DNA of 64,000 nucleotides, from positions 62,001 through 126,000 of the forward strand of contig NZ_SMYL01000009.1 of assembly GCF_004358105.1 (NCBI RefSeq), read 5' to 3'. Position 1 is the stretch's first letter; the number at the start of each line of letters is the position of its first letter. The stretch is from Sapientia aquatica (GTDB lineage Bacteria; Pseudomonadota; Gammaproteobacteria; Burkholderiales; Burkholderiaceae_D). This document shows, in pieces, positions 7,985 to 63,700 of this stretch. The notes beneath the pieces are model-generated. The model searched no databases, was not told the origin of the DNA, and saw only the letters and a list, made by a program, of their open reading frames with translations. Both the position numbers and the translations under genes were made by a program.

Positions 7985-9556
7985 TCACTGACGGTAATTG
8001 TCCTTGATCAAATAATGCCGTCCGTACCAAGCGAAAACCAAGGCCGCCAGCAGCGCAAAGCATGCAAAGAAAAACATCTGGAAGGCTGTCACTGACAATC
8101 CGGTATTTTGTATTTTTGCGGTTAGCGCTGCATTTTTCACGCTCGCGTTGGCCAACAAGACCCAAAGATTGCCGATGGTGGTGGATAGATTCCAAAAACT
8201 CATAATCACGCCTTTCATTGCTAATGGCGCTTGACTGTAAGCAAATTCCAATCCGGTAGTCGAGACCAGCACTTCACCCATGGTCAACAACGCATAGGGT
8301 AAAACTTGCCACGTCACGGACAGCGCGCTGCCCCCGTCCATCACCAACTGCATCAACCCAATTACAATCCACGCAACACCGGCAAACGCGATTCCGCACC
8401 CCATGCGACGTAGCGCATTGAATTCCAACCCAAGTCGCTCCAGCATGGGATACAAAACGAAATTATTAAACGGGATTAACAGCATCACCAACAGCGGATT
8501 TAAGGCTTGCATTTGCGACGACATAAACCAATCCTGCTTAGTCATCTGATCGGCTTGCACAATCCAGGTAGATGCTTTTTGATCGAACAATGACCAAAAA
8601 GGCGTGACCAATGCGAACACCACTAACAACCTCAATACTGCCCGCACGCCATCCACCGCCGCATCAGAATGCACAGCACGTGCCCGTTCCAATTGCAACC
8701 ACGCGCCCAGACCGCCACAACCCAGCACCACAACCAACGCAAGACATAAGGACGCAACAACCCCGATTTGACCGACCAACAATAAACACGCCAAACCAAA
8801 CAACACGCCCAATTGCGCTAAGCGCAGACCAAGGCGTGACTGACCTTGCTCACCGATGAGCAACGCTGACTTCACCACCTTAGAAAATGAATCGGGATTC
8901 TCCGACTGCGGCGCGATCATCACATAGTTTTTTCGCCCCAGCCAAAAAATAATTGTCGCCATTAGCATCAGCACGCCGGGAATACCAAACGCCACGGCAG
9001 CGCCGTATTGCCGCAGAAAAATCGGCATCAATAAGGACGCAAAAAATGAACCAAAATTGATGATCCAATAAAAGCTATCAAACACCTTGCGCGCCAAATG
9101 TTTATTGGCTTGATTGAATTGATCACCGACAAACGACGCCACCAAAGGTTTAATACCACCCGATCCCAAGGCAATCAAAAATAGCCCAGTAAAAAATCCA
9201 TTTCGGTTATTTTCAAAAATCGCCAAACAAGCATGTCCAGCGCAGTACACCAAACTAAGCCACAACACGGTGTGATATTTGCCGAGGTAACGATCGGCCA
9301 ACCAACCACCTAATAGCGGGAAGAAATACACCCCGATCACAAAGGTATGGAACACCTCTTTGGCCATACCAGCCCGCAGCGATTCCGGCATAGACAGAAA
9401 CAGGCTGGTTATCAAAAATGAAGTCAGGATATTGCGCATTCCATAAAAACTGAAACGCTCACAACCTTCATTGGCAATGATGTACTTGATTTGCTTGGGC
9501 ATCGCGCTCGCTGGCGCTGTCGAGGGATTAGCGGCTGAATTCGGTTCAAAAGACAT
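7985..9556 (-). CDS. POT/PTR2-family proton-dependent oligopeptide transporter
   Basis: Inner-membrane major facilitator of the POT family, 523 residues with about 12-14 hydrophobic segments. Family motifs: the ExxERF-like CERFSFYGMRN near residue 35, GGWLADRYLGKY, SGGIKPLVASFVGDQF and FYWIINFGSFFAS. These transporters import di- and tripeptides with protons. The last Tyr of the ExxERFxYY motif is replaced (FSFYG), which is common in some subfamilies. It is transcribed divergently from a small orphan gene. Confidence 0.92.
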   Translation of the reverse strand: MSFEPNSAANPSTAPASAMPKQIKYIIANEGCERFSFYGMRNILTSFLITSLFLSMPESLRAGMAKEVFHTFVIGVYFFPLLGGWLADRYLGKYHTVLWLSLVYCAGHACLAIFENNRNGFFTGLFLIALGSGGIKPLVASFVGDQFNQANKHLARKVFDSFYWIINFGSFFASLLMPIFLRQYGAAVAFGIPGVLMLMATIIFWLGRKNYVMIAPQSENPDSFSKVVKSALLIGEQGQSRLGLRLAQLGVLFGLACLLLVGQIGVVASLCLALVVVLGCGGLGAWLQLERARAVHSDAAVDGVRAVLRLLVVFALVTPFWSLFDQKASTWIVQADQMTKQDWFMSSQMQALNPLLVMLLIPFNNFVLYPMLERLGLEFNALRRMGCGIAFAGVAWIVIGLMQLVMDGGSALSVTWQVLPYALLTMGEVLVSTTGLEFAYSQAPLAMKGVIMSFWNLSTTIGNLWVLLANASVKNAALTAKIQNTGLSVTAFQMFFFACFALLAALVFAWYGRHYLIKDNYRQ

Positions 9557-9726
9557 CGTGGACGCTCCGATAGTTAGGTTAATTTCAGCGCTCCCAAAAC
9601 TGGCCGATCGAGAGCGGAACTAAATAATCCAAATAGCTTAGCAATTTAGTATTAAATAGATTTTTCAACAATACTTATCGGAGCAGTGCAAATTACAACA
9701 ACACTGTTTATTTTTACAGTTACTGG

Positions 9727-44581: not shown

Positions 44582-45002
44582 CAGGGGAATCGCCTTTGCT
44601 ACGATGACGCACTAATTAGAGCAATGAATACAGCTTTGGATCACAAGGCTGAGAACATAACTGACAACACGGATCAGAATGTAACCCAGTCAGCCAAGTT
44701 AGTATTATATCTTATAGTTTTACTTCATAGAAATATCCTTATAAATCAACGACTTACAGCAGCGTCAGCATAATGATTTATTGGATTGTGTAATTTTAAT
44801 AACTTTATGATATAACCCATTGATTTTATTAGGTTAAATGAGCAACCTTTCATGTTAAAAGTAGTAAAAAGTGCGGGGCAACTGCACAAAAACGTGACAA
44901 AATAGTTTCAAAAAAAACATGCTTCCGGTTGTTCTGTAACAGGAAAATCGACATATTGCTTATGTAACACCTAAATAGTAGTCTTACATAAGGAGTATCA
45001 AA
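44582..45002. other. Host-prophage junction region
   Basis: 421 bp without a convincing gene. Composition turns AT-rich from about 44,620 on, so the left attachment site should lie between here and the integrase. No tRNA or duplicated core could be identified within the window because the right end is missing. The end of this stretch carries the integrase leader hairpin. A 69-codon opening at 44564-44773 overlaps the DUF3579 start and has no ribosome binding site; it is not called. Confidence 0.5.
44959..44992 (+). promoter_or_regulatory. Inverted repeat covering integrase ribosome binding site
   Basis: CTTATGTAA (44959-44967) and TTACATAAG (44984-44992) form a perfect 9-bp dyad with a 16-nt loop. 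The right arm leads into AAGGAG, 8 nt before the int ATG. As RNA it would hide part of the Shine-Dalgarno; as DNA it could be an operator. Confidence 0.55.
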
Positions 45003-46049
45003 ATGGCACTAATAAAACGAGGCGACATATATCACGTTCGCGCCCAAGTCGCAGGCGTAATGATTGCAAGATCAACCAAAACAAAAAACAAGCGTATTGC
45101 AGAACAGTTGGAAGCTAAATGGATTTCAGAAGTGCATTCCGAAGTCGTAGTTGCTAACAGAATGCCAATAACTTTTGAAAAAGCTGTAATTAAATATGCT
45201 GAAAGTCGTCGGGGCACAAGAGTACATCACACTATAGCCAGCAAGTTCAAATTATTCAATGTATTTGCCAATCGCACATTGCACGAAATTAAAGCAGCCG
45301 AAGTAACTACAGCAGCTTGTGATTTAGTTAGTGTAACGGGTTATGCAATTAACACTGTCAACGTGTCTATTTTGTATTGGAACGCTTTACAAAACTTTTG
45401 CATCAAAAATGGCTACACTCCCGGCCCTAAAATTAAGCGATTAGCAGGGGCAAAGGGTCGCATACGCTTTTTAAGTGACGAAGAAGTAACTAAGCTAATG
45501 AAAGAATTAGACCCTGCTAATCCGTTTTATCGTAAGAAAGCATATGCACAAGAATCTTATGACTTTACTGTAGCCCTATTACACACCGGAGCACGTGACC
45601 AAGAAATATGCACACTTAAATTAAGTCAAATTGATTTAGGTAATAACACTATTACTATTCATCGTAGCAAAGGCGGCACAGATACAACAATAACTATGTC
45701 AAATACATTGCGTGAAGTTGTATTACGCAGAATAGCAACAAGCAAAGTTCCAAACATAGGCAAAACATTGCATGGTCGTGCAGATGAAGTTCATTTGTTC
45801 CCAGAACGCTGCAAACTAACTAAACATGGTAATGTAATGTTTATAGATGCTTGTGAACGTATAGGCATTACAGATGTGTCGTTGCATACTTTGCGGCACA
45901 CCTTTGCTTGCAAGCTATTACGCAATGGTTTGTCATTAAATGAAGTTCAACATGCACTTGGACATAAGAACATTGCTTCAACTATGTGTTATGCACACAT
46001 AGCACCTAACTTAACAGGTAATAGAATAGCTGCTGTATTCAATACTTAA
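45003..46049 (+). CDS. int: Phage tyrosine integrase
   Basis: 348 residues of the tyrosine recombinase family. Catalytic residues: R198 in HTGARDQE, K223 in HRSKGG, H295-x-x-R298 in HTLRHTF, H321 in LGHKN, and Y330 in MCYAHI. The N-terminal arm-binding and core-binding domains are present (about 1-50 and 55-145). It integrates and excises the prophage. Regulated probably at translation by the leader hairpin. Ends with a UUCG-loop terminator. Confidence 0.93.
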   Translation: MALIKRGDIYHVRAQVAGVMIARSTKTKNKRIAEQLEAKWISEVHSEVVVANRMPITFEKAVIKYAESRRGTRVHHTIASKFKLFNVFANRTLHEIKAAEVTTAACDLVSVTGYAINTVNVSILYWNALQNFCIKNGYTPGPKIKRLAGAKGRIRFLSDEEVTKLMKELDPANPFYRKKAYAQESYDFTVALLHTGARDQEICTLKLSQIDLGNNTITIHRSKGGTDTTITMSNTLREVVLRRIATSKVPNIGKTLHGRADEVHLFPERCKLTKHGNVMFIDACERIGITDVSLHTLRHTFACKLLRNGLSLNEVQHALGHKNIASTMCYAHIAPNLTGNRIAAVFNT

Positions 46050-46068: not shown

Positions 46069-46091
46069 AAAGCACCTTCGGGTGCTTTTTT
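46069..46091 (+). terminator. Terminator after int (UUCG loop)
   Basis: Stem AAAGCACC/GGTGCTTT closed by a TTCG-type loop and followed by a T-run. Confidence 0.9.
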
Positions 46092-46135: not shown

Positions 46136-46146
46136 GGTAAATAAAA
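46136..46146 (+). promoter_or_regulatory. Phage intergenic motif, copy 1
   Basis: GGTAAATAAAA, a variant of GATAAATAA, with its TAAATA ending 34 nt before the ATG at 46178 and 45 nt after the int terminator. Confidence 0.4.
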
Positions 46147-46177
46147 GTGTAGAAAGAAACTTATAGGAGACTACATC

Positions 46178-46708
46178 ATGGCAATTTTATTTATAGTATT
46201 AAGTGGTATGTTGGTATTGTTAGTAATAGCAAAGATTATTAGCGACGCATATTCAGCAGCAGAACTAAGAGAATTAAAAGAACAATGGAACGATATCAAA
46301 GTTGGTGGAACTTTTAATAATGTAGGGCTTGATTTTGCCAATAGACAACTTGCAAAATATAATTCAGATCAATTAGCTTCTTGTGATGTTGAAATTGCAA
46401 AATATCAAGAATTGAAAGCAAGCCAAGAAAAAGAAAAAGCAGAATTAGAAGTTAAAGCAGAAGAAAAAGCAGTAGCCGACAATGCGGAAATGGACAAATA
46501 CGAAGCAGCAAGGGCAAAACGCGCATCATTACCCGGCGTTAAATTAGGAATGTCTGAAAAGCAAGTCATCAATAAAACAAGTTGGGGCGCGCCAACAGAT
46601 GTGAATACTACTATTACAGCGAGTGGAAAACGTGAACAGTGGGTTTATGGAGAACATGGCGGTTACTTATATTTTACTAATGGTATATTAACTGCAATTC
46701 AAAACTAA
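46178..46708 (+). CDS. Phage membrane-anchored coiled-coil protein with BamE/SmpA-like C-terminus
   Basis: 176 residues. One N-terminal transmembrane helix (MAILFIVLSGMLVLLVIAKII), then a charged Lys/Glu coiled coil about 60-120 (ELKASQEKEKAELEVKAEEKAV), then a short folded domain LPGVKLGMSEKQVINKTSWGAPTDVN ending in EQWVYGEHGGYLYFTNGILTAIQN, which resembles the SmpA/OmlA fold. Function unknown; position between int and late genes suggests a lysogenic-conversion or envelope-acting gene. It has AGGAG about 8 nt before the ATG and its own terminator. Confidence 0.8.
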   Translation: MAILFIVLSGMLVLLVIAKIISDAYSAAELRELKEQWNDIKVGGTFNNVGLDFANRQLAKYNSDQLASCDVEIAKYQELKASQEKEKAELEVKAEEKAVADNAEMDKYEAARAKRASLPGVKLGMSEKQVINKTSWGAPTDVNTTITASGKREQWVYGEHGGYLYFTNGILTAIQN

Positions 46709-46725
46709 TGATAATTCAACCTAAT

Positions 46726-46752
46726 AAAAAAGCAGCCTAAGCTGCTTTTTTT
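46726..46752. terminator. Bidirectional terminator between convergent phage genes
   Basis: AAAAAAGCAGC-CTAA-GCTGCTTTTTTT, a perfect stem with a 4-nt loop, serving the gene at 46178 and the minus-strand pair. Confidence 0.9.
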
Positions 46753-46978
46753 ATGAATCCTTTTTCTGTGTAGCTTGTTTTGCCCCTATTACTCCACCAC
46801 ACCCAACTAATACTTGCATAATTCCATTCGCAAAGTTTGTTATATCAGCATTTTTACTTAAATATAATCCATATCCTGCATAACCTAAATATGAAACGAA
46901 TGCCACTGCTGCCATAAACTTAGCAATGCAGAAAGTTTCATTATCGTCTTCTGTAAAGATATTTTTTAAGAATTTCAT
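46751..46978 (-). CDS. Small phage membrane protein, holin-like
   Basis: 75 residues with two hydrophobic segments (KFMAAVAFVSYLGYAGYGLYL and FANGIMQVLVGCGGVIGAKQAT) and a charged C-terminus (QKKDS). That layout fits a class II holin or a superinfection-exclusion protein; no family is recognised. Its start overlaps the stop of the next minus-strand gene by 4 nt (ATGA), so they are translationally coupled. No endolysin lies beside it in the window. Confidence 0.65.
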   Translation of the reverse strand: MKFLKNIFTEDDNETFCIAKFMAAVAFVSYLGYAGYGLYLSKNADITNFANGIMQVLVGCGGVIGAKQATQKKDS

Positions 46979-47295
46979 TTATTTTGCGACCTAATTACAT
47001 CTAATATTTCAATTCTTAAATCTTTAATATCTTGCCTAATTTCAGCAAATCCATTTTTTTGATCTGAACGTAATTCAGAAATATCTTTTTCAAAGCGAGC
47101 AACCGTCTTATCTAATTCGTCTTTGCTTGCCTTTACATTCATCTGTGTGGTTATGTTATTCATCATTGTCTCTGCACTAATAAATCTATTATCAATAGAT
47201 TCTTTGTCACCCTTTCTAATCCAGCCAATAACACTACCGATTAGTGTTAAAACAGCCACCACCGCTATTATCGCTGTCCAAATAATCATTTCCAT
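46975..47295 (-). CDS. Phage protein with N-terminal TM helix and coiled coil
   Basis: 106 residues. MEMIIWTAIIAVVAVLTLIGSVIGWIR is a signal-anchor helix; residues about 30-105 are a long amphipathic coiled coil (NASKDELDKTVARFEKDISELRSDQKNG). Could be an Rz-type inner spanin or a membrane-attached exclusion protein; no lipobox partner (Rz1) was found in an overlapping frame. First gene of a two-gene minus-strand unit opposite to the late genes. Function unknown. Confidence 0.65.
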   Translation of the reverse strand: MEMIIWTAIIAVVAVLTLIGSVIGWIRKGDKESIDNRFISAETMMNNITTQMNVKASKDELDKTVARFEKDISELRSDQKNGFAEIRQDIKDLRIEILDVIRSQNK

Positions 47296-47357
47296 AGTGT
47301 TTTAATCCCTTAGCCTATAGCTTAAATTTACCAAGTTATTTATCCAAAATGGAACAA

Positions 47358-47367
47358 GGATAAATAA
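47358..47367 (+). promoter_or_regulatory. Phage intergenic motif, copy 2
   Basis: Exact GGATAAATAA, 36 nt before the terS start and 63 nt upstream of the divergent pair's start. Confidence 0.45.
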
Positions 47368-47403
47368 CAGTGATGAATGCTATGTATATGGAGAATCTTA
47401 CCA

Positions 47404-47880
47404 ATGGCTAAGAACAGAGAATATAGAGAAGTACAAAAACAGGACGCTGAAACTCAGAAAGTTCCTCTCCTTCAACGACTATACGCAATGGCAGCTAGTG
47501 GACTAAGCAAACGAAGCATGGCTGCAAAAATTGGATTTACTTTAGAAGAATTTCAAGACCTACTTAATTACAAAGAGAAAGGTATTCAACGTTACCAAAT
47601 GGCCTACGACGCTGGACGTGCTGTTTTCGAAGAAGAAAACATAGCAGTACTGGAGCAAGTATTAGAAACCGGCAGCGAAGGCATTAAAGCAAAAATCGCT
47701 CGTGACAACTTAAAAACATTAGAAGAATGGGCACCTGCAACTAAATCAGTAAAAGTAATTGTTGAAGATGCTGCGAATGTATTGTTGTTCGAAGCACTAT
47801 CAGAAGAAGACCAGAACGCTATTAAAGCGTCACATACACCTAATGACGACACCGAAGAAGATCAAACATCAGAAGATTAA
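47404..47880 (+). CDS. terS: Terminase small subunit
   Basis: 158 residues from ATG 47404, preceded by GGAG; the in-frame ATG at 47377 adds nine residues without a ribosome binding site. The N-terminal part has a homeodomain-like helix-turn-helix (YAMAASGLSKRSMAAKIGFTLEEF), the C-terminus is acidic (NDDTEEDQTSED). It binds the packaging site and recruits TerL. It overlaps terL by 38 nt. Confidence 0.8.
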   Translation: MAKNREYREVQKQDAETQKVPLLQRLYAMAASGLSKRSMAAKIGFTLEEFQDLLNYKEKGIQRYQMAYDAGRAVFEEENIAVLEQVLETGSEGIKAKIARDNLKTLEEWAPATKSVKVIVEDAANVLLFEALSEEDQNAIKASHTPNDDTEEDQTSED

Positions 47881-49168
47881 GCTTCTTCCCTTTCAAGAAA
47901 GTTTTGTAAACGATATCAGCTCTCCGCATATTGCACTTGTCGGTGGACTAGGCACAGGTAAAACGAAAGCAGCAGTATTCAAGACTCTTAAACTGCTACA
48001 AGAAAATCGCGGATGCAATGGAATCGGCTGCGAACCAACAGGACCACAGCTAGATATTTTCACTGAAGAAATGAATAAGACGTGTGCTGAGTACGGAATT
48101 AAATATTCCTATCGCGGTGCAGGTGCAGGTCATCCAGCATTTTATGAATTTGATTTTGGATATGGAAAGCAATTGCTTCGCCTAGTTTCAGCTAAGAATT
48201 ACAAGGCAAGTTTAGTTGGATATAACGCTGCATTTGGATTTATTGACGAAGCCGACACAATAGAAAACAAAGAAGAAGGCAAGGCAATTTGGTATGCATT
48301 GAATGATCGCTTGCGTGATCCTAAAGCAAGCGTAATTCAATCATTCGTTACAAGCACACCGGAAGGTTATCACACTATCTATGACATTTTCGTCGCAACT
48401 GCTGCACCAGACGGAACTGTTCTTACTTCTAGAGAAAATCACAGAGTCATTCAAGTAAGCACTTTCGAAAACATTTATTTGAAACCTGCTTATGTTGAAG
48501 GTCAATTAGCACGTTACACACCACAACAAGCCCAAGCAAAAATTTACGGCAAATTCGTAAATTCATTTGGACAGCGAGTCTATGACTGTTTTGATAGAAC
48601 AAAAAATACTACCACCGATACTTTAGAAAACTATCCACGAAATATTTTGCATGTTGGTATGGACTTTAACATCGGACAAATGAGTGCGACTGTTTCCATC
48701 ATCAATGATAAGCAACAAGTAATGACACTCGATGAAATTACTGGTGAACAAACTACTGACACGATGATTGCTGCAATCAAGCGCAAATATCCAAACAGAA
48801 TGATTTTGATTTACCCAGATACAAACGGCAAAAATCGAAGTGCAAATTCCAATGCTGATGAAACTTCAATTAATAAATTAAAGAATGCGTTTGGCCCACA
48901 AAGCTGCTTCTACAAGGGCAATAACCCTTCAATTTTCAAAGAGCGAGTTCCTGCTGTAAATGCGATGTTCAAAAATGCAAAAAGTGAACACCGTAGCTTT
49001 GTAAACCTTAACAAATGTCCTGTGTTGGTTAAAGGATTGGAACAGCAAGGTTACGTCAACGGAAAGCCAGATAAATCCAACGGACTCGATCACTGCTTAG
49101 ATGCATTTGGATATTTCATGCATTACAGGTTTCCGATTATCGGTCAGCAAGGATTTATTGCAGTTTGA
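47843..49168 (+). CDS. terL: Terminase large subunit
   Basis: 441 residues from ATG 47843, overlapping terS. Packaging ATPase with Walker A GGLGTGKT (34-41), Walker B FIDEAD (133-138), adenine motif LLPFQ, and the C-terminal RNase H-like nuclease (HVGMDFNIGQMSATV, LDHCLDAFGY). It drives DNA into the prohead and cuts the concatemer. The stretch before Walker A starts right at the phage-type KIKLLPFQ sequence, so the chosen start is consistent. Confidence 0.93.
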   Translation: MTTPKKIKHQKIKLLPFQESFVNDISSPHIALVGGLGTGKTKAAVFKTLKLLQENRGCNGIGCEPTGPQLDIFTEEMNKTCAEYGIKYSYRGAGAGHPAFYEFDFGYGKQLLRLVSAKNYKASLVGYNAAFGFIDEADTIENKEEGKAIWYALNDRLRDPKASVIQSFVTSTPEGYHTIYDIFVATAAPDGTVLTSRENHRVIQVSTFENIYLKPAYVEGQLARYTPQQAQAKIYGKFVNSFGQRVYDCFDRTKNTTTDTLENYPRNILHVGMDFNIGQMSATVSIINDKQQVMTLDEITGEQTTDTMIAAIKRKYPNRMILIYPDTNGKNRSANSNADETSINKLKNAFGPQSCFYKGNNPSIFKERVPAVNAMFKNAKSEHRSFVNLNKCPVLVKGLEQQGYVNGKPDKSNGLDHCLDAFGYFMHYRFPIIGQQGFIAV

Positions 49169-49173
49169 AAACT

Positions 49174-49184
49174 GGTAAATACAA
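49174..49184 (+). promoter_or_regulatory. Phage intergenic motif, copy 3 (weak)
   Basis: GGTAAATACAA, 18 nt before the portal start, in the short terL-portal gap. Confidence 0.3.
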
Positions 49185-49202
49185 CATTATTCAAGGATAC
49201 AT

Positions 49203-50771
49203 ATGATGCAAAAAAGTATCACATACAAAGAATTTCAAACTGATAATGCCACTGCTGCGTCAAAACTAATTGATTACTACGAAGGTGATCAAGAACGTTA
49301 TGTCACTCAAATGCTTAATGGGCAAATGGGCGGTTATGGAAAACGCGAAGACTGGCTCGACCGTGGTTACGTTCCACGTTCACGAAATATTATAAAAAGT
49401 ATTATCGACAAAAGTGGCTTGCTATTTAATAAGCCGCCAGTACTTTCAATTATTCCATTAGGTAAAACAAACACAGTTACAGATCAAACTTTTGATCGAA
49501 TTATGCACGACAGTGACTACTTAGAATTCTTTCAAAACGTGGACGTATATACACGCTTAATGAAAAGCACAATCGTCCTTCAACAAAAATATATTCCTAC
49601 CGAAGTTGCTACTGTAAATGGTCAATATATGTTTGATGCCCAACGTGGCGATGCACTATTGCTTATCCTTTTACATCGCGGTAATTCAGTAGTTCGCATG
49701 GATATTACGAATAACAAAATTATTGAACTCGCCTATTTAATTCCAAATACAAATGATGGAGACGATGACGACGGAGAAGACCAAGGTGATGTTTGGTATT
49801 ACCGTGTAATCACTCCAACTGCAACTGCTGATTACCTTGTTAAAGACGATAAAGAGTTTTTAATTCCGGGCACAGAACAACCTAATCAAGATGGATTTGT
49901 TCCAGCAAACTTTTTCTATGACATCAACAAACCAAGAGCAGGTGCTTGGGTTGATAGTCCTGAAGATATTGTTTCATTTCAAGAAATTTATAACTTACAT
50001 CTTACAGATACCGAATTCGCTGCTGCATGGCAAAAACAAAAAACATTGTTCACTGATAGTGCAATTATCGATACAAGCAGAGTAGGAACAATGGAAGGTA
50101 TGTATGCAGGACAAGGCCACACAGATGGCGGTACTGTTTATGCACCAAACCAAACAAAGAAAAGTTTAGGTGGATTAGGTCGAATTGTAAGTTTACAACC
50201 GGGTCAAGGTGACAAACCACCATTCATCAAATTTGACGGACCCGATACTGACCTTGCAGCATTAGATACAATGATGAGAGCGCTCGTTAAAGACTTAGCT
50301 TTTGACTGGGACGTAACTATCAACAGCGGAGCAGAAGTAAGAGCATCAAGTGGCTTCCAAATCGTTGTCGAAGAAATGAATAACCTTAACTTGCGTGAAA
50401 AACGCGGCCAAAGTTTTAGAGCTGGCCTACGCCGTTTTTATAACCTGACGCAAAAACTATATCCAGAACTTACTGTGGGCACGCTATGGGCTGATTTCGC
50501 TGCTCCAAGCATCCCTGTGAACACAATGGAACAAGAACAAATGTGGCAAATGCGTTTAGACGGAAATCGTTCAAGTTTAGTTGACTATTTTATGGAAACT
50601 CAGGAAATGACTGAGCAAGAAGCGAACGACAAAATTCAAGCAATCATTGAAGAGAAAAAAATGCTTGCTAAAGAATTGCCACAACCAATTCCATCCACTG
50701 CAACAAAGTTACCTACACCAACAGATACAGCTAACAGAGGAAATACAAGTCCATCGAGCACGACAGGCTAA
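49203..50771 (+). CDS. Portal protein
   Basis: 522 residues. Early WLDRGYVPRSRNIIKSIIDKSGLLFNKPP and the later WDVTINSGAEVRASSGFQIVVEEM with a long helical stretch fit a siphophage portal. It forms the dodecameric ring where DNA enters. The AAGGA Shine-Dalgarno is 5 nt before ATG 49203. An acidic insert (NDGDDDDGEDQGD) lies at about residues 181-193. A Thr/Pro-rich tail follows. Confidence 0.85.
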   Translation: MMQKSITYKEFQTDNATAASKLIDYYEGDQERYVTQMLNGQMGGYGKREDWLDRGYVPRSRNIIKSIIDKSGLLFNKPPVLSIIPLGKTNTVTDQTFDRIMHDSDYLEFFQNVDVYTRLMKSTIVLQQKYIPTEVATVNGQYMFDAQRGDALLLILLHRGNSVVRMDITNNKIIELAYLIPNTNDGDDDDGEDQGDVWYYRVITPTATADYLVKDDKEFLIPGTEQPNQDGFVPANFFYDINKPRAGAWVDSPEDIVSFQEIYNLHLTDTEFAAAWQKQKTLFTDSAIIDTSRVGTMEGMYAGQGHTDGGTVYAPNQTKKSLGGLGRIVSLQPGQGDKPPFIKFDGPDTDLAALDTMMRALVKDLAFDWDVTINSGAEVRASSGFQIVVEEMNNLNLREKRGQSFRAGLRRFYNLTQKLYPELTVGTLWADFAAPSIPVNTMEQEQMWQMRLDGNRSSLVDYFMETQEMTEQEANDKIQAIIEEKKMLAKELPQPIPSTATKLPTPTDTANRGNTSPSSTTG

Positions 50772-50778
50772 TTTCAAA

Positions 50779-50790
50779 GTGATAAATAAA
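50779..50790 (+). promoter_or_regulatory. Phage intergenic motif, copy 4
   Basis: GTGATAAATAAA, TAAATA ending 34 nt before the scaffold start. Confidence 0.4.
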
Positions 50791-50822
50791 ACTATAACAA
50801 GCACATTGATGGAGTTCAATAA

Positions 50823-51407
50823 ATGACTGAAGAAACAAATAGTGGCGAAAGCCAGCACGTTGAAGGAGTTCAACAACCAAGCATTGAAGATTTACAAGGA
50901 CAACTCGCTAAGGCAAATGCCGAAGCAGCTAAGGAGCGAAACATTCGCAAGCAATTGCAGAGTGAACGTGATGCAGCTAAAAAAGCCCCTAAAGAAAATT
51001 CAAGTGAGGATGATTACAAAGCACTGTGGGCACAAGAGCGTGAAAAGGCTGAGAAGCTTTTGAACAAGACTAAAGCAGCAAGCATTGAAAGCACTGTAAA
51101 AGCAAAACTTTCAAAAGCAGGTGTTTTACCTGACGCAATAGATGCAGCAGCAAAACTTCTCGACGCTGGAATGGTCCAGTGGGATGAAGATGATGGAGTT
51201 GATGAAGTTAGCGCACAAGCCGCTGTCGCAAAACTAAAAAGCCAGTTCGGTTTTATGTTTGAGAAAAAGGTTTCTGCAACTGACCCAAAACATCCAGCAG
51301 ACAATAAAAATAATAGTGACAAGACAATGTCGAGGTCACAGTTCGATTCGTTATCACCGCAAGCAAAAGTAGAAAGGATGCAAAACGGCTGGAAATTATT
51401 CGAATAA
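50823..51407 (+). CDS. Capsid scaffolding protein
   Basis: 194 residues, highly charged and helical. LAKANAEAAKERNIRKQLQSERDAAKK is a coiled coil typical of GP20-like scaffolds, and the basic C-terminal QAKVERMQNGWKLF could bind the coat protein. Position directly between portal and coat gene is the standard place. It helps assemble the procapsid and is absent from the mature particle. Confidence 0.8.
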   Translation: MTEETNSGESQHVEGVQQPSIEDLQGQLAKANAEAAKERNIRKQLQSERDAAKKAPKENSSEDDYKALWAQEREKAEKLLNKTKAASIESTVKAKLSKAGVLPDAIDAAAKLLDAGMVQWDEDDGVDEVSAQAAVAKLKSQFGFMFEKKVSATDPKHPADNKNNSDKTMSRSQFDSLSPQAKVERMQNGWKLFE

Positions 51408-51431
51408 TAAAAATAAAAAGGAAATAATATT

Positions 51432-52598
51432 ATGGCAGCTTCAGCTGGTAATAACACATTAACAGGTTTAATCCCTGTAATTTATGAATCAATGGACGTG
51501 ATCCCACGCGAATTAGTTGGTTCACTCGCAGCAGTAACAATGGACCCTTCAGCAGAAATGGCTGGTCTTAATCAGACTATTCGTTCGCACGTTGTTCCAC
51601 AAGGTTCTTTAGTTGATATCGTTCCGGGCGTAACAAATGCATCTGCATCCGGTCAAACGATTGGTTACGCAGATTTGACAATTTCTAAAGCAAAAACTTA
51701 TCAGATTTTATGGTCTGGTGAAGAACAATTGCTTTTGAAAGATCAATATCAAAAAGTTCTTGCAGATCAATTCCGCCAAGCATTCCGTACTTTAGGCAAT
51801 GCGATGGAAGCAGACGTTGTAAACGGTATCGCTCTTGGTGCTTCACGTGCTACAGGTACTGCTGGTACAACTCCATTCCAAGTTGCAACAAGCATGGGTG
51901 ACTTTGCTAATGCAATTAAACAATTGGATGATAACGGTGCTCCACAAACAGATCGTTCTATCATACTTGGTACTACAGCAGCAGCTTCAATCCGTGCTAA
52001 CCAAACTATCCTTTTGAAAGCTAACGAATCGGGTTCAACAGACTTGTTACGTACTGGCGCATTAGGAACTGTAGAAGGTTTTGCAATGCGTACTTCTGGT
52101 CAGATTAAAACTGGTCAAGGTCAAAACGGTGTAGCAGTTGGTACAGCATCAGGTTATGTTCTTAACGGCGCACATGCTGTTGGTCAAACATCAATCACAG
52201 TTGGTACTGGTACAGGTACAATTTTAGTTGGTGACGTTGTTACTATCGACGGATTCAAATATATCGCTACTTCTTCAATCGCTGCTCCGGGTACATTTAC
52301 AATCGCTGCTCCAGGATTGCAAGTTGCTGGTGTAAGTTCTGATGTAGTTGCAGACAATGCGACAAGTATCAAAAACTGCTTCTTACAAAAAGCAGGTTTC
52401 TTGTTAGCTACTCGTGTTCCTGCAATGCCAGCTGGTGGTGACTCAGGTACAGATATGACAATCGTTACTGATCCAGTTAGCGGCTTGTCGTTCCAAGTTG
52501 TTATGTATCGTCAATATCGTCAAATCGTTATCGACGTTGCTATTGCTTGGGGCGTGAAAGTATTGCGTCCAGAATATTGTGGCGTATTGCTTGGCTAA
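51432..52598 (+). CDS. Major capsid protein, P22 coat family
   Basis: 388 residues. The start (NNTLTGLIPVIYESMDVIPRELVGSLAAVTMDPSAEMAGLNQTIRSHVVP) matches the P22-type coat family used by many siphophages. A beta-rich central region (AHAVGQTSITVGTGTGTI ... FKYIATSSIA) corresponds to an inserted domain. The C-terminal YRQYRQIVIDVAIAWGVKVLRPEYC is conserved in the family. Strong Shine-Dalgarno AAAAGGAAA. Followed by two hairpins, consistent with a highly expressed transcript ending here. Confidence 0.88.
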   Translation: MAASAGNNTLTGLIPVIYESMDVIPRELVGSLAAVTMDPSAEMAGLNQTIRSHVVPQGSLVDIVPGVTNASASGQTIGYADLTISKAKTYQILWSGEEQLLLKDQYQKVLADQFRQAFRTLGNAMEADVVNGIALGASRATGTAGTTPFQVATSMGDFANAIKQLDDNGAPQTDRSIILGTTAAASIRANQTILLKANESGSTDLLRTGALGTVEGFAMRTSGQIKTGQGQNGVAVGTASGYVLNGAHAVGQTSITVGTGTGTILVGDVVTIDGFKYIATSSIAAPGTFTIAAPGLQVAGVSSDVVADNATSIKNCFLQKAGFLLATRVPAMPAGGDSGTDMTIVTDPVSGLSFQVVMYRQYRQIVIDVAIAWGVKVLRPEYCGVLLG

Positions 52599-52621
52599 TA
52601 TTTCGATACTTCTCGAAATAT
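52598..52621 (+). terminator. First hairpin after coat gene
   Basis: ATATTTCGA/TCGAAATAT with a 6-nt loop, beginning at the coat stop codon. It has no T-tract, so mRNA stabilisation is as likely as termination. Confidence 0.5.
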
Positions 52622-52630
52622 AGAAACATT

Positions 52631-52658
52631 AAAAAGGACATTTCGGTGTCCTTTTTAT
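52631..52658 (+). terminator. Second hairpin after coat gene, intrinsic terminator
   Basis: AAAAAGGACA/TGTCCTTTTT with a TTTCGG loop and T-rich tail. Confidence 0.88.
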
Positions 52659-52660
52659 TT

Positions 52661-52671
52661 GGATAAATAAA
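52661..52671 (+). promoter_or_regulatory. Phage intergenic motif, copy 5
   Basis: GGATAAATAAA placed 2 nt after a terminator and 19 nt before the next ATG. Confidence 0.5.
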
Positions 52672-52690
52672 CGGTATAGGAGATTTAATA

Positions 52691-53233
52691 ATGGGATTTG
52701 AAGTCGAAACAGGAAACGCATCACCAACAGCGAACAGCTATGTAGCCATTGCAGATGCCGATGCTTACCATACCTTATATCAAAATTTAGATTGGGCAAC
52801 TGATGGATCAATTCCAGATGCAACTAAGCAATTGGCACTAATGCACGCCAGCAAAGCGTGTGATCTTTTATTTGGTCAACAGTATTTGTCAATGCCAGCA
52901 ACAAGTGCTCAAGCGATGTTATTTCCTCGATTCACTTTCGTAGTAAATCAAAGACAGTTAATTTCAAGCACAACCATTCCTCCACAATTAAAAAATGCAG
53001 TCTGTGAACTTGCATTGTTATATCTCGACGGAACAGACATATACCCTACTCCGAACACAACTGCACAAGTTCAAAGTGAAAGCATAAAAGTAGGCGATAT
53101 AACTAACAATACAACTTTCGCCCACGCTCCAAACGTAGAACAGTTCACTGGATTTTGGCATGTCGAAATGCTTTTAACACCAATTATGAAAGGCCGTGGA
53201 ATTGCAAATAATTCAAACGCATTTGGTCACTAA
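52691..53233 (+). CDS. Head-tail connector, DnaT-like fold
   Basis: 180 residues. The N-terminus TGNASPTANSYVAIADADAYHTLY plus the mid PFLFPR-like segment (MLFPRFTF) and IPPQLKNAVCELALLYL match the family annotated as putative DnaT-like/phage head-tail adaptor. The name is historical; the location after the coat gene points to a head completion protein. AGGAG is 9 nt before the ATG. Confidence 0.75.
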   Translation: MGFEVETGNASPTANSYVAIADADAYHTLYQNLDWATDGSIPDATKQLALMHASKACDLLFGQQYLSMPATSAQAMLFPRFTFVVNQRQLISSTTIPPQLKNAVCELALLYLDGTDIYPTPNTTAQVQSESIKVGDITNNTTFAHAPNVEQFTGFWHVEMLLTPIMKGRGIANNSNAFGH

Positions 53234-53236
53234 GAT

Positions 53237-53569
53237 ATGGCATATAACTATTCCAGTTTAGTAGTTTCAACAGCCAATCTAATTCAGAAATTTGGAACTG
53301 CTGTAACCATCCAAAGTGCATCCACTGGTAAGACAGTGAAAACTTATGCAGTCTATTGTGGTGGTACAGATGCATCCGACACGACTAATACAACTTCGCT
53401 GTTTACAAAAATTACTACTGGTACAGAAACGTGCTATTTGCCAGCCACTGTAATTGCTCCGCTGCCGGGCGACATTATTATCGGCAAAAACAGATCACAC
53501 AAAATTCTAACGATCCAATCATACAGTCCAGCAGATACCTTAATTGCTTACAAGGTAGCACTCCAATGA
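53237..53569 (+). CDS. Phage head closure-type protein
   Basis: 110 residues, beta-rich, 4 nt after the previous gene and overlapping the next by 4 nt (ATGA). Position and size suggest a head closure (FII-like) protein, but I do not recognise a specific family. It ends IAYKVALQ. Confidence 0.6.
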   Translation: MAYNYSSLVVSTANLIQKFGTAVTIQSASTGKTVKTYAVYCGGTDASDTTNTTSLFTKITTGTETCYLPATVIAPLPGDIIIGKNRSHKILTIQSYSPADTLIAYKVALQ

Positions 53570-53874
53570 GCAATGGAATTATTGATAGCTTATTTGTCGA
53601 TTTGAATACTCGACTACGAAATTTCAAAAAAGAATTCGCAATGGAGTTTGTTCACAGGGTTGAAGAACGAACACCAGTACAAACAGGCGCATTGAAAGGC
53701 GGTTGGGTAACAGAACAAACACAAACCGGATTCGAACTATCCAATACGCAAGATTACGCAGGATATGTTGAAAACGGAACAGACAAAATGGCTCCAAGGG
53801 CAATGATAGCCACAACAGCTTTAGAAATGAAAGAGATCGCAGAAGTAGCGAAACAAAGGGCAGGGATTAAATGA
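53566..53874 (+). CDS. HK97 gp10-like tail component
   Basis: 102 residues from ATG 53566, overlapping the previous stop. The central FVHRVEERTPVQTGALKGGWV and DYAGYVENGTDKMAPRAM are the signature of HK97 gp10/phage minor tail proteins that join head and tail. The longer in-frame opening from 53431 lies inside the previous gene. Confidence 0.85.
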   Translation: MSNGIIDSLFVDLNTRLRNFKKEFAMEFVHRVEERTPVQTGALKGGWVTEQTQTGFELSNTQDYAGYVENGTDKMAPRAMIATTALEMKEIAEVAKQRAGIK

Positions 53875-54275
53875 ATACATTAGACATACAAAATGCCTTA
53901 GATGCTCAACTTCAAACGATTGCAAATCTTCCTGCCTTACAGACTGAAAATAACAGGTTCAATGCCAGTACGAATATTGCAAGTTGGGTTCGTTCTACGT
54001 TGATGCCAGCGCAAAGTTCAGTTTTAGCAATTGGCCCTAATGCCCTAACCCAAATGCAAGGGTTTTACCAAGTTGATGTGTTCTACCCAGCAGACACCGG
54101 AATAACCGCTGCAAGAACCCTTGCAGACACCATAGTGAGCACGTTTCCAGTCGGTCTAAGGCTTGTTGGAAGCAGCGGAACAGTAATTGTAGATGTAACG
54201 AGCGTAATAACAGCATATTCCATAAATAAGTATTACTGCATTCCAGTACGAATCCAGTGGTCAGTATTCGGATAA
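53871..54275 (+). CDS. Tail terminator protein (DUF4128-like)
   Basis: 134 residues, overlapping the previous gene by 4 nt. MNTLDIQNALDAQLQTI, then FYQVDVFYPADTGITAARTLADTIVSTFPVG and the final PVRIQWSVFG match the tail terminator family (DUF4128). It caps the tail tube polymer. Confidence 0.8.
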   Translation: MNTLDIQNALDAQLQTIANLPALQTENNRFNASTNIASWVRSTLMPAQSSVLAIGPNALTQMQGFYQVDVFYPADTGITAARTLADTIVSTFPVGLRLVGSSGTVIVDVTSVITAYSINKYYCIPVRIQWSVFG

Positions 54276-54281
54276 GAAAGA

Positions 54282-54294
54282 AGATAAATAAAAG
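54282..54294 (+). promoter_or_regulatory. Phage intergenic motif, copy 6
   Basis: AGATAAATAAAAG, TAAATA ending 41 nt before the tail tube start. Confidence 0.4.
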
Positions 54295-54331
54295 CAGTCG
54301 GACAAAATAAAAATAATAAGGAGTCCCAATC

Positions 54332-55258
54332 ATGCAGATCGCAGTAGGAAGTAGAAGCGCAATTGGCGCGGTAGTAGAAACGGTTTGGGGCACAACACCA
54401 GCAACACCAGCCCTATTAGATTTACCATTCACGACATTCAATGTGAATAAAACATTAGACAAGTTCAATGACACTTCTATCCAAGGCGATAGAATGATGC
54501 GCCCATCGGTTACAGGTAATACACATATTACTGGCGACTTGGATGTAAATTATCAGCCATTAAACTATGACAATTTGTTAGCATCATTATTCAACTCAAC
54601 TTGGGTTACGAACGTATTAAAAATCGGCCAAGTTCAGTCGAGTTTTACCTTTGAACATAGTCAGTTAGATATTTCACAGTTCTGGCAATACACTGGAATG
54701 GTAGTTGATAAACTTCAATTGAAATTATCGACAAGCGGACTTGTTACTGCGAAATTTACTTTAATTGGTAAAGATAGCCCAACCCCTACAGTAGTTTCAG
54801 TTGATACTACTGCTGGAACAGGCGTTGGTGGATTTTATAGTGCTCCTACAGCAGCACCACCATTCACTCACAACGGTGGCACATTCAAAGAAGGTGGTTC
54901 AGCATTCGCGTCCTTTATGTCGTTAGATATTACGTTCGACAATAAAACGGCCGCAAACTTTGGGTTAGGTGGAAGCACAGCGGCAAGTTTAACTTCAAAC
55001 TATTTCGAAGTAACTGGTTCAGCAAGTGTTTATGTTCAAGATGCTGTTATGTATAACAAATTCATTGAAGCGACTTCTACAACATTAGAATTCACTTTAG
55101 CGAATGGAACTAATACACACGATTATTTAATTCCAAACGTTCGTTATCACGGCGCTACAAAAGCAGTTACAGGTCAAGGCCCAGTGACAATGACTTTACC
55201 GTTCGTTGGCTTCTATGATTCAACAAGCGGATCAAATGCAGTAATCACACGCACTTAA
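54332..55258 (+). CDS. Major tail tube protein
   Basis: 308 residues. The N-terminal IAVGSRSAIGAVVETVWGTTPATPALLDLPFTTFNVN and the repeated beta-hairpin pattern fit the siphophage tail tube family. Residues about 150-260 include a Gly/Ala/Thr-rich stretch that may be an extra surface domain. It polymerises into the tail tube around the tape measure. Followed by a terminator. Confidence 0.82.
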   Translation: MQIAVGSRSAIGAVVETVWGTTPATPALLDLPFTTFNVNKTLDKFNDTSIQGDRMMRPSVTGNTHITGDLDVNYQPLNYDNLLASLFNSTWVTNVLKIGQVQSSFTFEHSQLDISQFWQYTGMVVDKLQLKLSTSGLVTAKFTLIGKDSPTPTVVSVDTTAGTGVGGFYSAPTAAPPFTHNGGTFKEGGSAFASFMSLDITFDNKTAANFGLGGSTAASLTSNYFEVTGSASVYVQDAVMYNKFIEATSTTLEFTLANGTNTHDYLIPNVRYHGATKAVTGQGPVTMTLPFVGFYDSTSGSNAVITRT

Positions 55259-55276
55259 TGATTCAAGTTTCAAATC

Positions 55277-55299
55277 AAGACCCTTCGGGGTCTTTTTTT
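55277..55299 (+). terminator. Terminator after tail tube gene (UUCG loop)
   Basis: AAGACCC-TTCG-GGGTCTT followed by T-run. Confidence 0.92.
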
Positions 55300-55301
55300 A
55301 T

Positions 55302-55313
55302 GGATAAATAAAG
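55302..55313 (+). promoter_or_regulatory. Phage intergenic motif, copy 7
   Basis: GGATAAATAAAG placed 2 nt after the preceding terminator and 19 nt before the tail chaperone ATG. Confidence 0.5.
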
Positions 55314-60739: not shown

Positions 60740-63700
60740 GAATAAAAAAAATATACCTTCTGAAAATATTGTTGGTGCAGGTGGTGGTGGAAAAGGCGGT
60801 GGAAGTAGTGGTGCAAATATTGCGCCGGACAATCTATCATCAGTAAGTTCCGCGCGAGTATTGTTTGCTGTCGGTGAAGGTGAAATGGGTGGATTATGGA
60901 CAGGCGATGCAAAAAGTATTCGCATTAATAATACCCAACTTCAAAACCCATCAGGAACCTATAACTTCAACAATGTAATTTGGAACGTAAATACTGGCAC
61001 ACCAAGCCAAACATATATTCCGGGTTTTAGTGCGGCTGAAAATTATTTCTCGGTTGGTACAGAAGTGTTTAGTTATTCTCCTGTTACGGTTACTACATCT
61101 GGACCGAATATTGATGCAATGCGTATGGATATTCAAATTCCTGCATTGTCTATTCAAAGCAGTTCAACTGGTGATGTGAAGGGTTCATCAGTATCGTTCT
61201 ATTTCCAAACAAAATTATCAACTGGTGGCACATGGACAACGGTAAAAAACGTTACCGAAACTGGAAAATGTTCAAGTCCACAAATTATCAGTTATCGCAT
61301 TCCGCGCCCTACTTCTGCTGGTATTTGGCAAGTAAAAGTTGTTAGAACAAGTCCAGATGATTCAGGCACACTAATTCAAGATAGAACTATCGTAAATGGC
61401 TACACTGAAATCCAAGACGTTCAATTAGCATACGCAAATACGTGTGTATTAGGTGTTCAGGTTGATGCAAAAAGTATCGGCACAAGTGTTCCAACATTTA
61501 GTGCTGACTGGTACGGACGAAAAGTTCGAATTCCAAACAACTATGATCCAGTAACACGCATTTACACAGGATCGTGGACTGGTACATTTGGTGCGACAAA
61601 ATATTATACAAATAATCCAGCGTGGATTGTTTTTGACATGCTCACTGAAGCACGAGCAGGATTAGGACTTGCAGACAGCCAAATTGATAAATTCAGTTTC
61701 TATAATGCTTCTGTTTATTGTGATGCAGGAATTCAATACACTTCCGGTGGTGTTTATGTGACGGGTGGTGTAAGTGATGGTGCTGGCGGTCATGAACCGC
61801 GATACACATTTAACGGCGTAATTAATCAGCGTTTAGGTTCGTGGGATGCACTTCAACAAGTTGCATCAATTATGCACGGACGATTATTTACGACAGGTCA
61901 GTTAATAAAATTAGTTATTGATCAACCGGGTTCACCAGTCGCGTTAATTACTAATTCGAATGTAATTAACGATGGAAATACAGATTTTACATACAGCACA
62001 CCGAGCGCTACTACACGATTCAATGCTTGTCGCGTTACTTTCAACGATCCTGCATATAACTATCAAGTTAAAGACATTTTATACAATGATACAAGCACAG
62101 GCGAAGCCTACTTGCAGACTGATATTAATGGTTTTGGTATTACAAGTGAAGGACAAGCAAGACGACTTTCAAAGTGGGTAGTTGATACAAGTTTATACAG
62201 CACTTTAACTGTCGCATTCAAAGTTAGTTTTGAACACGCTGCTTTAGAGCCATTCGACATTATTAAATTAATGGATACGAATGTTGCTGGTGTAAATCAA
62301 GAAACAAGGATTGTTAGCATAAGCGGAACTTCAGTAACTTTTGACCGCCCAATAACAGTAGGCACAGGTACTTGGACTGTGGATGCGGTAGGAAGTGACG
62401 GTATAACTATTGAAACAAGAACAATTACAAGCACTGGTACAACAAGTGCGACCCACACTGTTTCATCTGCTTTGACTGGTGCGAAGAATAGTGCAGCAAT
62501 AATTACTGGTGCAGTTGGCGCACAATATTTCAGAATATTGTCTATCAAAGAATCAAAACCATTTGAATATGATGTTACAGCGACTCAATATGACTCAGCA
62601 AAATTTGCACGAATTGAAGGCGGTATTGCAGTCGCTACGTCACCGTTCTTCAGCAATCCAAATCAAACTTCTGTAAGTCCTGTTAGTGGATTTAGTTATG
62701 CACAAGTTAGTGCATTACAGCCTGATGGATCAGTGGGCAGATATTTAGATGTTGAGTGGGCACCTGTTTCAACTGACTACGTTGTTCGCTATGGTGTGAA
62801 CTGGAATAAAGACGACAATCCAATAACTGATTTAGGAAATAACATTCTTCAGCCAAGGGTTCGCATTCCACTCACTACAGATGGCACATATCTTATCAAT
62901 GTAATTGCATATAATTCATTCGGTAAAGCATCTGCACAGGCTACAGGAACATATACAGCAACCCTTTCTGCACCGTCAGGCATATCACCATTACCGAACG
63001 TAACAAGCCTTCAAACAGTAGCAGGAAGCACTACGGTATGGACTGGTCCTGATTTGACGGTTTCGTGGGTTGCAGGTGTTAATACGACTGCTTCTACGCT
63101 AAAGGATTATCAAGTTACTTTAGTGAATAGTGGAACAAGTTCATTATTCAAGACGTTCTATACGACAAGTACAAATTTCGCCTACAAGTTTGCCGACAAT
63201 GCTTCTGACAATGGTGGTACTCCTGTACGCAATATTGCAGTCACTGTAAAAGAACGTGATGCAGGTAACTTATTAACGGCAGGTACTGCTGTAACCTTAA
63301 TAAATTCTGCTCCTGCTGTTCCGACTTCAATTACTGCGACAGGAATGCAAAATGGAGTCGCTGTTTCGTGGGCTGCTACAGCTTCAACAAACACTATTGC
63401 TGGTTATATTGTTTGGGCGAGTCAAACGAACGCATTTACTCCAAGTTCTGCGAATGTGGTTTATCAAGGTTCTGCAACTGCATTTATTCACGCAAATTTA
63501 GCGACAAGTGCTGTCTGGTATTACAAGGTTGCTGCATACGATATTTTCGGTGTGAATTTGTCTGGTACTGGATTGAATGTGTCAAGTCAATATACTGCTA
63601 CTGCGACTGCTGCTGTAGGTATTTTAGGTGTTACTTCATTGCCGGGTTCAGGCACGGAAGGCATGGTTGTATTCAATACGACAGACGGACAACTTTACAG

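Follow-up and report, generated by a model that had tools for sequence, protein, structure and literature searches.

Boxes of the T4 late promoter type in a gp55-less temperate siphovirus family, possibly served by incoming T4-type phages

The genome of Sapientia aquatica (assembly GCF_004358105.1) carries a prophage in which a short box built on ATAAATA precedes most gene blocks, in the orientation of the genes. The window analyzed here is a stretch of 64,000 nucleotides (nt; positions 62,001 to 126,000 of contig NZ_SMYL01000009.1), and the prophage spans 37.5 kilobases (kb), from about 44.7 to 82.2 kb in window coordinates, past the window end. The box is very probably a promoter of the T4 late class. 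We propose, with a probability of roughly 0.45, that the temperate siphovirus family to which the prophage belongs parasitises T4-type late transcription, its members being switched on only by an incoming T4-type phage.

In the proposed mechanism, a T4-type late promoter would have the box as its core, (G/N)ATAAATA at −13 to −6 without a −35 element, and in the T4 register the transcript would begin 6 nt downstream of it. The boxes before most rightward and leftward gene blocks would split the virion genes into several short late transcripts. The prophage would remain silent until a T4-type phage enters the lysogen and supplies a gp55-type sigma in trans, and would then use the late transcription of the intruder for its own virion genes.

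Enrichment and orientation of the box

Using curated gene limits, the sense-oriented gaps of the prophage (4.3 kb) contain 14 copies of GATAAATA, against 0.29 in dinucleotide shuffles (maximum 3 in 200). The 33 kb of prophage coding sequence has one copy in sense and none in antisense, so the motif is not equally frequent in shuffled or coding sequence. An unbiased ranking of k-mers returned GATAAATA as the top 8-mer of the prophage (13 vs 0.15) and ATAAATA as the top 7-mer of five relatives (47 vs 4.7). In the window there are 6 exact copies of the 9-mer GATAAATAA, where shuffles have 0.95, and none of 100 shuffles reached 6. The host DNA of the window shows no enrichment (2 vs 1.14). A strand-reversed control was uninformative, ATAAATA being identical when reversed.

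That these counts arise by chance in AT-rich DNA is practically out of the question. The phage DNA does have a GC content of 35-41%, but chance is excluded by the dinucleotide shuffles, the coding-strand counts, and relatives with GC up to 0.58, as the first-pass annotation had anticipated when it argued from positional regularity. The strand bias (17:1 and 13:1 in relatives, among ATAAATA counts of 26:3, 17:1, and 13:1 in three contigs) and the conservation in GC-richer contigs also stand against it.

All seven sites given by the first-pass annotation carry the box (GGTAAATAA at 46136 and GGTAAATAC at 49174, for instance), with exact starts shifted by 0-2 nt. The 9-mer GATAAATAA was said to occur in five of these gaps and nowhere else in the phage region, but there is a sixth exact copy on the minus strand (47336-47344), 41 nt before the gene 47295-46975, and the relative L130 has CATAAATA at the equivalent place. 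The distance of 21-41 nt from box to start holds for the genes of the portal, scaffold, head-tail adaptor Ad1, tail tube, and tail assembly chaperone, and for the terminase small subunit (terS) if its start is 47404; it does not hold for several genes beyond the window, where the distance is 4-10 nt. Three terminators do precede boxes, by 4, 8, and 47 nt rather than the 2-3 and 45 nt first reported. The proposal that CCTAAATAG in the integrase leader is a variant of the box is plausible, CTAAATAG being enriched in relatives (5 vs 0.25). As for the broader suggestion of T4-late-like promoters driving several short transcripts, it is supported by the way box orientation tracks the gene, by the conservation of the box in orthologous gaps, by the T4 layout, and by some boxes placed directly after terminators.

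A probable promoter of the T4 late class

The T4 late promoter is an 8-bp box one turn upstream of the start, with its first T at −13, no conservation at −35, and AT-rich sequence downstream (PMC2988020), and the late promoters of cyanophages are NATAAATA (PMC2984593). The 8-bp box found here, GATAAATA in the prophage and NATAAATA in its relatives, matches the latter. Across 78 aligned sites, in which ATAAATA is invariant by selection, there is a G bias at −13 and no −35 element: between −52 and −14, no position carries more than 0.14 bit of information. Both the contigs with gp55 and the siphovirus family have A or C before TAAATA. As a positive control, the 75-115 kb region of T4 has 8 copies of TATAAATA in its gaps (0.47 expected), and none of the negative controls, which were HK639, qsb1 (39% GC), Me-ZS1, and other siphoviruses, is enriched. 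We considered a sigma-70 −10 element and rejected it, given the lack of a −35, the invariant 7-mer, and a TAAATA without T at −7. Our searches of the open-licence literature gave no earlier account of a temperate siphovirus with T4 late promoters.

The box could alternatively act at the level of RNA, as a processing site, a translation enhancer, or a 5'-end stabiliser, which we regard as very improbable. It lies 20-40 nt before many starts, and in G195 and G196 hairpins often come directly after it. Yet between box and start there can be as few as 4 or more than 60 nt, gp55 phages are known to use this very box as their late promoter, and several boxes stand right after terminators, where the upstream transcript should not continue. 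This enrichment of 5' hairpins is seen behind the box in G195 and G196 but not in the prophage, and we do not use it as an argument. On contig L131, hairpins such as GTAGC-loop-GCTAC occur directly after the boxes at 2252, 4436, 6184, 6589, and 11554, and are similar to the 5'-end stem-loops of phage mRNAs.

Conservation across the family

Searches with the portal protein gave no match among 50,697 phage genomes, 195 related bacterial genomes, or 84,980 bacterial species genomes. In IMG/VR, portal relatives were found on 13 contigs, one of them only a partial match with 26% identity; the portals of the family contigs are 45-70% identical (68% for L130). The TAAATA box is kept in orthologous gaps (portal, scaffold, head-tail adaptor, tail tube) of about ten contigs, whose GC ranges from 0.37 to 0.58. 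At the portal, 9 of the 10 contigs with a placeable start have it, the exception being L247, and in the table of orthologous gaps it recurs before scaffold, Ad1, and tail tube. L130 has boxes before a lipoprotein-like gene, terS, portal, scaffold, Ad1, and tail tube, and reversed ones before minus-strand genes; minus-strand boxes thus precede minus-strand genes in this relative and in the prophage alike. Seven further family contigs have 13 boxes in sense-oriented gaps, against 0.65 expected. A second integrated member, G238 (38.9 kb), has an integrase, 12 such boxes (0.73 expected), and, at the right end, what look by eye like host genes (DoxX-like). In L244 and L245, NCTAAATA replaces NATAAATA in the same gaps, possibly a switch of promoter specificity.

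Search for the reader of the box

T4-type late promoters are read by the RNA polymerase core carrying a gp55-type sigma domain 2. The gp55 profile phrog_234 has no match in the host genome, prophage included, or in 12 family contigs at E up to 1, and Sigma70_r2 is absent from the relatives tested. When compared by hhalign with the open reading frames (ORFs) of the prophage, G238, and G195, a set lacking a few miscalled frames and ORFs over 600 amino acids, gp55 reached a probability of at most 3.4%, with controls at 100%. An all-against-all phmmer search of the two complete proviruses found only virion, packaging, and integrase genes in common, so that no conserved family gene is a candidate reader. 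This makes a trans-acting factor the simplest account, and T4-type phages are the known source of such a factor. Since gp55 was detected neither in the prophage, nor in the rest of the host genome, nor in the second provirus, we see about even odds that the reader is supplied in trans by a T4-type phage.

An HNH homing endonuclease of the prophage (L004:14536-14976; adding 63000 to L004 coordinates gives window coordinates) has relatives in G195 and G196 and resembles the MobE-type enzymes of T4-type phages (894 phage records). This kinship with MobE in T4-type genomes points to past co-infection.

A particular spacing also links the prophage with gp55 phages. Exactly 5 nt separate TAAATA from ATG at 72574, 75696, and 77525 (plus strand) and at 72045 (minus strand). 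If the T4 register holds and transcription begins 6 nt after the box, it would take the A of AUG as +1 and give a leaderless mRNA. The corresponding pattern, TGATAAATATTGNTATGR, occurs twice in the host genome, both times inside the prophage, and in at least 120 stretches of IMG/VR viral contigs, against 10 for a scrambled pattern. In 86 of the 120 matches listed, its ATG begins an ORF at least 60 codons long, compared with 20% for other ATGs. We detected gp55 (phrog_234) in 20 of the 38 long contigs with TGATAAATATTGNTATGR and in none of 27 controls (10 contigs with the scrambled pattern and 17 unrelated siphovirus contigs); the control run was negative throughout, with the same query that found gp55 in the pattern contigs. 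The arrangement of box, five nucleotides, and ATG is, at the level of sequence, a signature of gp55-encoding phages. Many T4-type contigs (L009-L128) show this spacing, with exactly 5 nt between a late box and the ATG at which a long gene begins. Among gp55 phages, late mRNAs without a leader may therefore be common, which we did not find reported.

Several points weigh against a helper. The gp55 of a T4-type phage is not known to act on a prophage of this kind. The gp33 protein and the gp45 clamp on replicating DNA, normally required for T4 late transcription, would both have to work on the DNA of the prophage. In contrast to classical satellites, the prophage encodes a complete set of virion genes, and it has a strict G at −13 where T4 has T. 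The contigs of the relatives may be incomplete, most being fragments. Finally, a T4-late-like motif is also present in phage rV5, which lacks gp55, gp33, and gp45 (PMC3606486), so such boxes may have another reader.

Such a reader could be a highly diverged specificity factor of the prophage itself, a host sigma, or sigma-70 altered by a small protein of the prophage, which we consider less likely but still a serious rival. The rV5 precedent speaks for it, as do the strict G at −13, which suggests a cognate reader, and several uncharacterised early-type genes without a box (78085-81917, minus strand). However, the box is common to two complete proviruses whose only shared non-virion gene is the integrase, and the profile searches for gp55 and Sigma70_r2 described above found no such factor. 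Sigma-70 in particular would have to read a TAAATA that fits poorly as a −10 (no T at −7) and has no −35, and the lack of enrichment in the host part of the window also counts against this rival. Even less probable, by far, is a relic, in which an ancestral gp55 was lost and the prophage is a dead remnant. We found no gp55 and recognised no endolysin or repressor, but near-perfect boxes and undamaged virion genes persist in two integrated members and in about ten further contigs, which argues that the boxes are under selection.

Features of the prophage

The positions of the boxes and of the associated genes and terminators are given in Table 1. The candidate attachment (att) site is a direct repeat of 12 bp, TATATCTTATAG, with copies near 44706 and 82201. 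About ten more boxes precede genes beyond the window.

Table 1. Boxes and associated features of the prophage, in window coordinates.
Feature	Position	Strand	Basis
Variant box CCTAAATA in integrase leader (ATG 45003)	44970-44977	+	Sequence
Integrase gene	45003-46049	+	phrog_1, E 1e-44; homologue in second provirus G238
Intrinsic terminator, next box 47 nt on	46069-46088	+	Stem
Box GGTAAATA ahead of gene 46178-46708	46136-46143	+	
Box GATAAATAA ahead of genes 47295-46975 and 46978-46751	47336-47344	-	
Box GATAAATAA ahead of terminase small subunit (start 47404 by L130 alignment)	47359-47367	+	
Box GGTAAATA ahead of portal (49203)	49174-49181	+	
Portal gene, defines the family; without PHROG match	49203-50771	+	
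Box GATAAATAA ahead of scaffold gene (50823)	50781-50789	+	
Major capsid gene, no box of its own here	51432-52598	+	phrog_283, E 4e-73
Intrinsic terminator of major capsid gene, 4 nt short of box	52630-52657	+	
Box GATAAATAA ahead of head-tail adaptor Ad1 (52691)	52662-52670	+	
Box GATAAATAA ahead of tail tube gene (54332)	54283-54291	+	
Intrinsic terminator of tail tube gene, 8 nt short of box	55277-55294	+	
Box GATAAATAA ahead of tail assembly chaperone (55333)	55303-55311	+	
Boxes beyond the window	65501, 65917, 72088, 72497, 72572, 73136, 75592, 75694, 76702	+	
Box beyond the window	72045	-	

Beyond the window, the prophage encodes a VapE-like replication helicase, whose matches in the phage collection are mostly from streptococcal satellite phages. 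Upstream of the operon of this helicase and directly after a box lies a strongly structured leader or non-coding RNA (L004:10149-10369, window 73149-73369; z −5.1), in which a long stem closes three hairpins. It has no Rfam match, and a scan of the right-hand prophage region with Rfam gave sub-threshold miRNA matches only. At L004:12592-12680 and 9499-9562, a terminator-like hairpin appears to come no more than about 60-80 nt after a box, without an intervening gene, and these may be small RNAs. A DUF6071 protein (L004:13733-14500; Pfam E 3.5e-9) is encoded downstream of a box; neither it nor the GIY-YIG protein has relatives in the phage collection. The minus-strand block at L004:15982-18917, which has no box, consists of uncharacterised genes (402, about 162-180, 63, and 185 amino acids) and is a candidate early or lysogeny region. 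L130 encodes, at its left end, a weak relative of the 185-amino-acid protein (81360-81917). This protein looked H-NS-like by eye, which Pfam did not support, and an AlphaFold model, made without relatives, was uninformative (mean pLDDT 43). An assembly gap, a run of 100 N, lies within a repetitive gene at L004:7438-7537.

Comparison with known systems

To our knowledge, T4-type late promoters have been described as a property of gp55-encoding phages. Their box across a temperate family in which gp55 was not found would mean either a new reader of this promoter or prophages that live off T4-type infections. If the latter is true, these prophages would sense and exploit a lytic competitor by promoter mimicry.

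The likeness to the late promoters of T4 and T4-like cyanophages extends from the ATAAATA core at −12 to −6, the missing −35, and the AT-rich downstream sequence to late transcription in many short units, predicted here, on either strand and often beyond a terminator, and the tolerance of A or C before TAAATA. The differences are that the box is found here in a temperate siphovirus family where gp55 was not found, that in this prophage G and not T is at −13, and that three genes beyond the window have their ATG exactly 5 nt downstream of the box. The rV5-type phages, alike in having a T4-late-like motif without gp55, gp33, and gp45, differ in that rV5 is lytic and has eight copies of a weaker motif, TggTAaAAtA (PMC3606486). 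HK639-type siphoviruses have a similar gene order and a major capsid protein 43% identical to that of the prophage, but no enrichment of ATAAATA.

Like the phage satellites P4, PICI, and PLE, the prophage is integrated and would depend on another phage, and its VapE-type helicase is like those of satellite phages. Unlike them, it encodes its own portal, capsid, tail, and terminase, so its dependence would concern late transcription only. Virophages are believed to use the late machinery of giant viruses because their promoter motifs match, and the endogenous types differ in motif (PMC10945749). With boxes before the integrase as well as the virion genes, the family would correspond, among bacteria, to virophages, but with a capsid of its own. 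As in virophages and endogenous mavirus-like elements, it is integrated and its promoters match those of a larger co-infecting virus, and sub-groups have different promoter variants (here GATAAATA, NATAAATA, and NCTAAATA), which would be tuned to different helpers. It differs from them in being bacterial and tailed, with unrelated proteins, and in that its helper is only deduced.

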